This document shows positions 58,429-62,158 of a stretch of DNA of 64,000 bases, piece after piece. Source of the stretch: Chloroflexota bacterium. GTDB taxonomy: Bacteria; Chloroflexota; Dormibacteria; Dormibacterales; Dormibacteraceae. How positions within the stretch are numbered: position 1 is the stretch's first letter; every line of letters starts with the position of its first letter. Below the pieces are notes generated by a model. The model did no database searches and was not told where the DNA came from. It worked only from the letters and a program-made list of their open reading frames with translations. The DNA lies in assembly GCA_005883575.1 (NCBI GenBank), contig VBFH01000023.1, positions 248,001 through 312,000 on the forward strand. The letters are read 5' to 3'. The position numbers and the translations under genes were made by a program.

Positions 58429-59232
58429 TTATTGGAGCATGGCGGCGGCCGCTGCAGTGACGAGCTGGTGGGCGTCTCCCCAGTCCACAACCTCGGTGCG
58501 GCGGCTCCAGTATCGCCGGCCGCCGGTTCGCCAGGTCCCGTCCGGCCGGCGCTTTTTAATGAGCAGCTCGACCGCATCGTCGGCACGTGGATCCCTGAGC
58601 AGCCCAAGCATCGCGAGCGCGCGCAGGCCGTGGAAGAAGTCGTAGTGCCAGTAGTGCGGCCAGTGGATATGCACCCACTCGTCGTGGATCACCCCTCCTG
58701 TTTCCATGGAACGAAAGAGGCGATGCTCGAGCAGGAGCTCTCCGGCACGGCGCGCCGCCAGACGTGCGCGACCGTCGCCGGTGCTCCGATGGTATTCGAC
58801 CAGTCCCCAGATCGGCGCCAGGGTTTCGTGAAACGACGAGCGGCGGGCATGCGGATTTGTGTCGCAGTTCCAGCCGCCGTCTGGCCACTGCGCGCGGAGG
58901 AGCACCTCGGCGAGGTGGCGGACGCCGAGCCTGTTGGACATCCCGAGCCGGCAGCACACCGCCAGCGCATTGCCCTCCATCGAAGCGTGGCGGCGTTCCA
59001 TGCCCGCGATCACAAGAGGTTCGGAAGGAGCTGCGATCCAGTCGAGCACCGTCTTCGCCGCGGCGCGGGCGGCGCGGCTTCTGCCCGGCACGCCCAGCTC
59101 GACGAGCGAAACGAGCCGCCAGTGGGCCCCCGTCCACTTGGAATACGGATGGACCCCAAAGCCGCCGTCAGGGCGCTGGCCCGACAGCAGGCGCTCGATA
59201 ATCGACCGGCGCCAGGCCGGGTCTACTCCCAC
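58429..59232 (-). CDS. Terpene-cyclase/prenyltransferase-like alpha/alpha-toroid protein
   Basis: 267 residues from GTG 59232, which overlaps the guaA end by ten bases. Repeated QW-like units: [46 protein letters not shown], with helices between, as in squalene-hopene cyclase or prenyltransferase beta chains. A cyclase acid motif (DxDD) is not seen and the length is about half of a full cyclase, so it may bind rather than cyclise a substrate. Its place inside a purine gene run is unexplained. Confidence 0.7.
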
Positions 59233-60806
59233 TCGATCGTGCCCGGGGGTTTGGACGTGATATCGAAAACCACGCGGTTCACGCCCTTCACCTCGTTCAC
59301 GATTCGGTTGCTGATCCTCGCCAGCACCTCGTACGGCACGCGTGCCCAGTCGGCGGTCATCGCGTCTTCGCTGGTCACCACCCGCACCGCGACCACGTTG
59401 GCGTAAGTCCGGTAGTCGCCCATCACCCCGACTGTCTCGAGCGGTGTGAGCACCGCAAACGACTGCCATACCTGTCGGTAAAGACCGTTGCGCTTGATCT
59501 CATCCACCACGACCCAGTCGGCGTCACGCAGGATCTCGAGGCGCTCGGCGGTTACCTCGCCAAGGCAGCGGATCGAGAGACCCGGGCCAGGAAACGGCTG
59601 CCTGAACACCATCTCCTCCGGCATTCCCAGCTCCAGACCGACCGCACGGACCTCGTCCTTGAACAGATAGCGCAGCGGCTCGATCAACCGGAAGCGCAGG
59701 CCAGACGGCAGTCCGCCGACGTTGTGATGAGTCTTGATCTTCGATGCGGTGTCCGCGACGTCGGGCGCGGTCGACTCGATGACATCCGGGTAGAGCGTGC
59801 CCTGGGCCAGGAAATCGATCCGGCCGAGGCTTGTCGCCTCGGCCTCGAAGACCGAGATGAACTCCCGGCCCACGATCCGCCGCTTCTGCTCCGGGTCGAT
59901 GACACCGCGCAGCGTGGCCAGGAAGCGCTCGGTCGCATCCACGTACCGGATGCTCATGTCGAGATTGCCGTGCATGACGTCGAGCACGCGCTCAGGCTCT
60001 TCCTTGCGCAGCAACCCGTTGTTGACGAACACGCACGTGAGCTGGTCTCCGACGGCGCGGTGCACGAGAGTGGCGGCGACCGCCGAGTCGACTCCACCCG
60101 AAAGCGCGCAGATCACCCGGCCGTCGCCAACCTGCGTGAGGATGCTCTCCGTCGCCTCGGCGATGAACGAACCCGCCGTCCAGGAGGGCGTGCAGTGACA
60201 GACGCCGAATAGAAAATTGCGCAGGATCTCGCGGCCGCTCGGCGTATGCACCACCTCGGGATGGAACTGGATGCCGAAGATGCCCTTGCCACTTGTGAAC
60301 GCCGCGACAGGCGAGTTGCCGCTGGTTGCCAGAAGCTCAAAGCCCGGCGGCATCTCGCTCACGTGGTCACCGTGGCTCATCCAAACCGGCAGCTCGCCCT
60401 GCAACCCATGAAACAAGGCGTTCGGACCACGCACGGAAAGCAGCGCCGGGCCGTACTCGCGCGCATGGCCAGGGTCGACCCTGCCGCCGAGGTGGTGTGC
60501 GATCAGCTGCATGCCGTAGCAGATGCCAAGCACGGGCACGCCGGCGTGCAGCGCCGCCGGATCGATCTGAGGCGCGCCTTCGTCGTAAACGCTTGAGGGC
60601 CCGCCGCTGAGGATCAGGCCCGCGGGATGGCGCTTCTCCAGCTCGGACCAGGGAGTCGCGCCAGGCACGAGCTCGCAGTAAACGTTGGCCTCGCGCACGC
60701 GCCGCGCGATCAGCTGGCTGAACTGAGAGCCGAAGTCGAGGACGAGGACCGTCTGCTGGCGCGCGTTCTTCTCGACTTTTTCCCGCCTCGCCGCGGCGGT
60801 CGTCAT
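59223..60806 (-). CDS. guaA: GMP synthase (glutamine-hydrolysing)
   Basis: 527 residues from ATG 60806. It converts XMP to GMP. The glutaminase has [20 protein letters not shown] in blocks, nucleophile Cys in [16 protein letters not shown] and GIQFHPEV; the synthase has [15 protein letters not shown], the PP-loop, [25 protein letters not shown] and ends KPPGTIEWE. Normal length. Confidence 0.97.
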
Positions 60807-60812
60807 AGGGGC

Positions 60813-60850
60813 CCCCGCGAATTCAAGGCGAAGCCTCGGAATTCGCGGGG
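60813..60850. repeat. 38-bp palindrome, copy A (between guaA and guaB3)
   Basis: Perfect 12-bp arms CCCCGCGAATTC (60813-60824) and GAATTCGCGGGG (60839-60850) enclose an inner AGGC/GCCT stem. It fills the guaB3-guaA gap. The reverse complement matches copy B (62019-62056) at 34 of 38 positions. It resembles a REP-type extragenic palindrome and could also shape the guaB3-guaA transcript. Confidence 0.85.
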
Positions 60851-60855
60851 ATTGG

Positions 60856-62028
60856 TCAGTTCTTGCCCATCCCCACGTGCTGCGCCTGCTGGAACACCTT
60901 GCCCTCGGAGACGATCGAAGGCGCGATCACCAGCTCGACGTGCTGGAACTCGGCGATGTCCCGAGCCCCGCATACGCCAAGCGCCGACCGCAGCGCTCCC
61001 GCGAAGTTCTGCGTGCCATCGTCCACTCGCGCGGGCCCGAGCAAAATCTCGCGCAGCGTCGCCTTGGTGCCGACCTGGATCCTGGTCCCGCGTGGAAGGT
61101 TGGGATCGGGCGTGGCCATGCCCCAGTTGAAGCCCTTCGACGACGACTCTTCAGCGCCGGCAAGCGGTGTGCCAATCATGACCGCGTCCGCACCGGCCGC
61201 GAACGCCTTGCAAACGTCGGCGCCGATGCGCATGCCCCCATCGGTGATCACAGCGACGCGCATGCCTCCGCGACGCATGTGCTCGTCGCGTGCAGCGGCA
61301 ACATCCGCAGTGGCGGTCACTTGCGGCACTCCGACGCCGAGCACTCCCCGCGTCGTGCATGCAGCGCCGGGACCAACACCGACCAGGATCCCGGCGATGC
61401 CGGTCTCCATCAGCTCGAGAGCCGTGTCGTACTGGACGCAGTTGCCCACGACGACCGGGATATCGCAAGCGCGAACAAGCTCATCGAAAGCAAGCTGGTG
61501 ATACGAGCGCGATGAATGTCGAGCCGTGAGCACAGTGCCCTGCACGACGTATACGTCCGCACCCGCCCGCTGCACGATGTCCGATCGCTCCTCGGCGCGG
61601 CCGGGCACAGTCGACACCGCACACGGTACACCCGCCGCCTTGATGGCCTTGATTCTCTCCGCGATCAGCTTCGGCTTGACGGGCTCGCGGTAGGCCTGCT
61701 TCAGGACGGCGTTGACTGTGGAGCGGTCCGCCGCAGCGATCTTCTTGATGATCGGGGCCGAGTCCTCATAGCGCGTATGGACGCCGTCGAGGTTGAGGAC
61801 AGCGACACCGCCGAGCTTGCCCATCGCGATCGCGAAATCGACGTCGACCACGCCATCCATCGCCGAACCCCAAAAGGGCAGCTGCAGAGCGAACCGCTCG
61901 ACCATCGAAAACGAGATGTCGACCTCGTCCGGATTCAGAGTCACACCGCCCGGGACGAGAGCGACCTCGTCGAATCCGTACGCGCGGCGCGCCCGCCGTC
62001 CGATCCCGATCTCGAAATCCCCACGAAT
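60856..62028 (-). CDS. guaB3: GuaB3-family IMP dehydrogenase
   Basis: 390 residues if started at ATT 62028. Oxidises IMP to XMP, or a related GuaB-type reaction. [22 protein letters not shown] is the family N-terminus in blocks, with no canonical start codon in frame nearby; ATT gives [11 protein letters not shown], which aligns with MRDxVEIGMGR of actinobacterial GuaB3. The catalytic loop is [18 protein letters not shown] (Cys in ACTTR), and [16 protein letters not shown] and [12 protein letters not shown] follow. CBS domains are lacking, as usual for GuaB3. The start lies inside palindrome copy B. Confidence 0.9.
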
Positions 62029-62056
62029 TTCGAGGCTTTGCCGTGAATTCGCGGGG
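62019..62056. repeat. 38-bp palindrome, copy B (over the guaB3 start)
   Basis: Arms CCCCACGAATTT and GAATTCGCGGGG (two mismatches, both allowed as G-T pairs in one strand). It is an inverted copy of the element at 60813-60850. It contains the ATT at 62028 that seems to start guaB3 and about ten codons around it, so the element would be part coding, part leader. Confidence 0.8.
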
Positions 62057-62158
62057 ACCCCTGACTGGCCAGAGTGCTCCCGGGAGATCTCCTCTCGGGC
62101 TTCAAGTCGGGTCTCCTTCAGGGTGTGCTCACTCCATTGAATGGGGCGGGTTCGGCGA

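Follow-up and report, generated by a model that had tools for sequence, protein, structure and literature searches.

Two inverted palindromes lie close to guaB3 in the window (the whole 64-kb stretch of DNA analysed here), which raises the question of whether they form a functional pair around that gene or arrived separately. A preliminary description of copy A (60813–60850) and copy B (62019–62056) had reported that they are 34/38 identical in opposite orientation, that each is itself a hairpin, and that the window holds no other copy; it had taken them as a matched pair exactly flanking guaB3 that could mark a mobile cassette or allow inversion of the gene. Re-analysis reproduced the orientation and the identity, and the likeness extended to 47-nt arms (60807–60853 and 62016–62062, 89% complementary). 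Each copy folded far better than dinucleotide-preserving shuffles (z −2.95 to −4.9), with energies on the two strands of −29.1/−29.7 kcal/mol for copy A and −22.0/−27.4 kcal/mol for copy B, and a search of the 64-kb window revealed no third copy. Exact flanking was correct for copy A, but not for copy B, which, given the apparent guaB3 start, sits within the coding sequence of that gene. The features of the locus are listed below.

60808–60852, + strand: core of copy A, covariance-model match G000:C94:308808-308852, letters GGGGC-CCCCGCGAATTC...GAATTCGCGGGG-AT
62016–62066, − strand: copy B, exact 51-nt insertion with its core at 62017–62061, from empty orthologous sites and translation
60856–62121, − strand: guaB3, apparent start CTG (62121–62119), from leader lengths in relatives and translation
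59223–60806, − strand: guaA, from the open reading frame list and the junctions of relatives
60805–60861, − strand: old guaA start, a CTG that overlaps the guaB3 stop and opens an 18-codon frame, from sequence and translation

The apparent start codon of GuaB3 in this clade is a CTG preceded by GGAG. Counted from that CTG, the leader measures 51, 63 or 75 nt, in each case divisible by three, and is conserved in those relatives with an empty site in which the motif was found; because it is conserved and in frame, copy B would add 17 residues to GuaB3 19 codons from the start. The filled site, gagcactctggcc[AGTCAGGGG..GGGGATT]tcgagatc, differs from the empty one, gagcagtctggcctcgagatc, by exactly 51 nt, which are read in frame as 17 codons, so that the N-terminus runs MKETRLEAREEISREHSG, then the 17-residue insert, then FEIGIGRR.... 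Judged by this translation, copy B is simply read through. Starts at CTG may be unusually common in this clade, as they appear to be used by GuaB3 here and by guaA of relatives at the guaB3–guaA junctions L064–L076.

Copy A separates the guaB3 stop from the guaA start, its sense being opposite to that of the genes. It is missing from the guaB3–guaA junctions of relatives and was present only in this genome (G000) among those compared; counted by hand against those junctions, it is a net insertion of 50 nt. The relatives have guaA with an apparent CTG or GTG start overlapping the guaB3 stop (CTGA for CTG). Here the TGA of the 18-codon frame overlaps the guaA ATG (60806), which lies at the edge of copy A (CCCCTATGACG), and copy A appears to break the old guaA frame, forcing the gene onto this ATG. 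A shorter palindrome (GGGGTCACCCCGCGGCTTCGCCGCGGGGACCCC) occurs near the guaA start at L064, L071, L072 and L075 (genomes G003, G010, G011 and G012, respectively); two copies of it score with model R1, which suggests a possible kinship with the element.

The site of copy B was filled only in G000 and G005 among the relatives compared. Copy B is thus common to G000 and G005, and copy A is confined to G000; the two are separate insertions, probably of different age. In the guaB3 tree, G005 groups with (G000, G004) with moderate support. G004 carries no element at this site, and has 12 extra in-frame bases (four codons) exactly at the copy B site (L070), possibly the remnant of a lost, decayed element. 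The four left-edge bases of copy B also differ, being AGTC in G000 (62063–62066) and TACC in G005; given this difference, and given that G004 groups with G000 and lacks the element there, independent insertion of copy B in G000 and G005 is possible, but the 12 extra bases of G004 are what a decayed copy would leave behind. In young copies the bases at the left edge vary and are rich in A/T, which a target duplication does not explain; they could be coupling bases derived from the donor.

With about 24 copies in the genome, A and B are no pair. By chance, 0.19 pairs this close are expected for 24 copies in 3.6 Mb, so their spacing is unremarkable. A cassette or invertible segment around guaB3 would account for inverted copies 1.2 kb apart that are 89% alike, but about 50 records of relatives carry guaB3 without either copy, A and B are differently distributed among relatives, the guaB3–guaA order is unchanged wherever the downstream flank is available, and guaB3 inverted between the copies was seen in no relative. 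We therefore give both the cassette and the inversion reading next to no weight.

The whole-genome palindrome search that the preliminary description had proposed returned 9 copies by pattern and 24 by covariance model in this 3.6-Mb, 127-contig assembly (95.5% complete). It had also remarked that dozens of copies scattered between unrelated genes would make this an ordinary REP family; roughly two dozen copies do lie beside unrelated genes, and the family is accordingly REP-like. The same GuaB3 occurs at 86–93% identity in metagenome-assembled genomes (MAGs) labelled 'Chloroflexi bacterium' and 'Candidatus Dormiibacterota'. In a first survey, 21 of 22 members of the taxonomic family carried copies (1–28 each at E<=1e-3), the exception being G019, and other families of the class gave weak single matches. 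With a stricter second model some further members of the taxonomic family had no match, while G112, from a further genus of it, had 32 copies; among 151 genomes of the phylum, five matched at E<=1e-5, all five in that taxonomic family, and nothing outside it passed this threshold. Overall, we think it likely that these palindromes are mobile but non-autonomous elements confined to a single family of soil bacteria within Dormiibacterota, and that they land mostly behind the starts of operon genes and often donate the start codon.

The core consensus is AGGGGY-CCCCGCGAANTCAmGGCGAAGCCTCnGANTTCGTGGGG-AT. The palindrome has 15 base pairs, with covariation: in 42 distinct copies, 98.6% of cells were paired, and columns 15–34 were paired in 42/42 copies, with A-U, C-G, G-C and U-A about equally frequent. 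The unpaired T29 and C30 were conserved in 100% and 95%, respectively. Hairpin energy is about −23 to −27 kcal/mol, and an SD-like GAGG and a GTG lie inside the stem-loop. Size variants also occur: a short form (GCGAAATC-GCA-GATTTCG) whose loop has three to four bases and whose outer bases are often CC..GG (L326, L327, L329, L330, L332, L337), of which L326 contains two copies on the same strand 4.7 kb apart, and a long form that holds several tens of additional internal bases (L335, L336, L342).

Comparison of orthologous filled and empty sites revealed an insert of about 51 nt (range 50–54). A second exact 51-nt insert was found at site L252 ([TTTGAGGGG..GGGGATT]) between G002 and G009, which are 94% identical at the guaB3 locus. 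Tests of 85 copies over many offsets and lengths gave no signal of a target-site duplication, the best z being below 3 among hundreds of combinations. A left-arm pattern search of four genomes found no parent insertion sequence; its matches were mainly whole copies, short and long variants, and a small number that were partial or decayed. The REP-associated tyrosine transposase (RAYT) that the preliminary description had advised looking for was sought and not found: PF01797 (Y1/RAYT) had no match in G000 or in 15 further members of the genus, MAGs being incomplete, and no Y1/RAYT gene scored above the cut-off in this genome or 24 relatives, whereas control genomes score. One sub-threshold PF01797 match came from another family. 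Copies also lie inside coding sequence (GuaB3, ArgR) and at the C-terminus of transketolase, where they are read in frame.

For the relationship to neighbouring genes, 86 distinct copies were used, with the adjoining sequence scored by codon usage trained on the window; gene calls were local, and gene starts were deduced from codon usage and open frames rather than annotation, so that some may lie elsewhere, since the clade seems to use CTG starts. For 67 copies there was a confident gene on the GGGG side, pointing away from the element in 52 cases and toward it in 15 (p=6e-6). If the upstream gene was co-directional, its stop codon lay 1–9 nt before the core in 27/33 cases. The predominant sense is ATCCCCACGAANTCnGAGGCTTCGCCGTGANTTCGCGGGGRCCCCT, and the mRNA in this orientation reads ..CCCCACGAANTCnGAGGCTTCGCC-GTG-ANTTCGCGGGGRCCCCT.., that is, SD-like GAGG, 7 nt, and GTG or TTG. 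The codon 7 nt after GAGG was GTG in 55/86 copies and TTG in 11/86, with no NTG in 20/86, and GAGC replaces GAGG in about one copy in six.

Downstream genes were in frame with the internal GTG/TTG in 34/52 cases (p=2e-6), all of them stop-free from that codon on, and this frame was favoured 34:8 over the sole other frame open through the element (p=7e-5). As copies at one orthologous site are not independent, orthologous sites were also collapsed, which left 23.5/39 clusters in frame (p 0.0003–0.0009). By our own count, 17 copies have no other ATG/GTG/TTG from the preceding stop to at least 45 nt downstream. Counted from the internal codon, Pfam domains begin at residue 10 in Mrp, 11 in Dxr (Rossmann part), 12 in UDP-glucose dehydrogenase, 14–17 in the FAD-type oxidoreductase and 22 in Sua5. 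In G112, 18 of the 19 neighbouring genes called with confidence point away from the GGGG side (p=8e-5), and upstream stops lay at −27 to −36 in 7/14 cases and were the element's own TGA in 4/14; only 8/18 downstream genes were in the GTG frame, which is not significant (p=0.22), since many of them have their start beyond the element. Position and orientation thus follow a general rule, seen in both genera. Start donation, as predicted from reading frames, is well supported in a sample dominated by the genus of the window, and only illustrated in G112.

Filled and empty sites allow the start codons before and after insertion to be compared. In Dxr, the empty relatives (CTGTAGATGCGGGCCCTCAACATC) have an ATG right at the upstream stop; at the filled site (CAATGAGGATCCCCACGAAGTCAGAGGCTTCGCCGTGACTTCGCGAGGGCCCCTGGGGCGCCCAGTCAAC) an ATG at the old position opens 11 codons, closed by the TGA contained in the element's GTGA, whose GTG shares the reading frame of Dxr. 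The empty Mrp site reads GTGCCCAGTAAGG; when it is filled, the frame of the old GTG is closed by a stop codon within the inserted element, and the gene is in frame with the GTG that the element carries. The RNase J site is TTGTGAAATCTCGGCTG when empty and GTGAAATCCCCATGA..GGCGTGAGTTCACGGGGACCCCAGAAG when filled, and the site of an ABC-transporter gene (L038/L311) is like that of Dxr, with the old-start frame in L038 ending at the TGA of the element's GTGA. The downstream gene thus often appears to receive a new start codon inside the hairpin, its product beginning M(N/S/T/I)SRGPL...; the N-termini predicted from the internal start are (M)TSRGPLGRPVNVAVLGATGSIGQQTLDVIDR for Dxr (G022, L047) and (M)SSRGPRVSKEQVLDVLSAIK for Mrp (G004, L243). 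The pheA copy of this genome (L019) is inserted behind the GTGA of the empty site, and pheA appears to use a GTG at the opposite end of the element (GTGGGGAAAAAGGTCGCC). In the window itself, neither copy A nor copy B gives a clear-cut example of a start donated by the internal GTG.

These dispersed, imperfect palindromes, lying mostly at gene junctions, might be an ordinary REP-type repeat that a RAYT moves and that plays no part in translation, its internal starts being frames left open by chance; the many downstream genes of G112 that start after the element fit this. Such a repeat does not account, however, for the bias toward the internal-GTG frame over the only other open frame, for the 17 copies that offer no alternative start nearby, or for Pfam domains that begin too near the element for a downstream start, and no Y1/RAYT gene was found in this genome or in 24 relatives, while control genomes score. 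We consider it unlikely, though it deserves more weight than the view of the palindrome as a conserved, immobile host regulatory RNA (an attenuator or riboswitch-like leader at gene starts). The latter would explain both the strong orientation bias and a structure conserved with compensatory changes, but the occupancy of any one site varies among species of one genus and the empty sites are precise, copies lie within coding sequence and at the transketolase C-terminus, the adjoining genes have no common function, and no known RNA family in Rfam matched in the window; we regard it as very improbable.

These sequences most likely represent a selfish, REP-like palindrome that brings its own signal for restarting translation. 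In the mechanism that we propose, the element would insert its ~51 nt mostly a few codons after a start codon that touches or overlaps the stop of the upstream gene. The old start would then open a short frame, and the downstream gene would start at the internal GTG/TTG; because the element rebuilds the stop/start overlap, the downstream gene would stay expressed. A ribosome that terminates ~30 nt upstream would lie over the 5' strand of the stem and unwind it, exposing the SD and the GTG (translational coupling). Dispersal, empty sites, the base-paired structure, orientation bias, the position of the upstream stop and frame bias are read directly from the sequences; translation starting at the internal GTG and ribosome-driven melting of the hairpin are what we infer from them. 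The melting step is consistent with models of RNA unfolding and reinitiation (reviewed in PMC12548453), and the mechanism agrees with overlap-dependent coupling (PMC6728339). Carrying its own restart signal could explain how a selfish REP-like palindrome persists in packed operons, and survival at junctions is a simpler view of the junction bias than targeting to them. More tentatively, and at slightly less than even odds in our judgement, a self-contained restart, with its SD-like motif and its GTG overlapping TGA enclosed in a hairpin that a terminating ribosome can melt, may let the selfish repeat enter tight operon junctions of a compact genome and leave the gene unsilenced, tagging many housekeeping enzymes of this bacterial family with M-x-SRGPL, the mover being a kind of enzyme not yet linked to REPs.

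Bacterial palindromic repeats are usually viewed as extragenic passengers or as in-frame inserts like the Rickettsia palindromic elements (RPE). If the present reading is true, a repeat that supplies starts explains the spread of a mobile element through operons with overlapping genes, start-codon turnover becomes traceable by empty/filled comparisons, and some core enzymes of Dormiibacterota owe their start sites to a mobile element, whose copies offer natural variants for tests of hairpin-based translational coupling.

None of the papers that literature searches returned describes start codons being supplied at operon junctions by a dispersed palindrome, and among known systems REP, RPE and BOX each seem, on comparison, to share only part of the element's features. 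Like REPs and REPINs with their RAYTs (PMC2817692, PMC3116915), it is a short imperfect palindrome with many dispersed copies, non-autonomous and confined to a lineage. It differs in that the 24 copies here are below the >100 usual for REPs (PMC2817692), the 5' foot is AGGGGY, with variable bases before it, rather than a GTAG/GTGG-type tetranucleotide, no RAYT (Y1, IS200/IS605-related) was found in the genomes here, and copies are not strictly extragenic, being found inside GuaB3 and ArgR and, in many cases, over gene starts with apparent supply of the start. A MITE would have the terminal inverted repeats of a known insertion sequence together with a target duplication; no target duplication was seen here, and the left-arm search of four genomes found no parent element. 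RPEs (PMC3767692, PMC10969869) are likewise palindromic inserts in frame within proteins, as in GuaB3 and ArgR here, but, by description, they are set apart by their ~100–150 bp within ORFs, whereas the present element has ~51 nt, lies mostly at gene starts and has its own start codon. Pneumococcal BOX, which encodes the stop codon of 36 genes and in which some ORFs start (PMC3049150), likewise contributes codons to the ends of genes from dispersed copies; the ORFs started by BOX are new, unconserved and without a good SD (PMC3049150), whereas here conserved housekeeping genes appear to be started. Translationally coupled hairpin junctions (PMC12548453, PMC6728339) share the layout of the proposed junction, with a stop/start overlap (GTGA), an SD and start in a hairpin and an upstream stop close by; those junctions are native, whereas the one described here, as read from sequence alone, would be delivered by a dispersed repeat.
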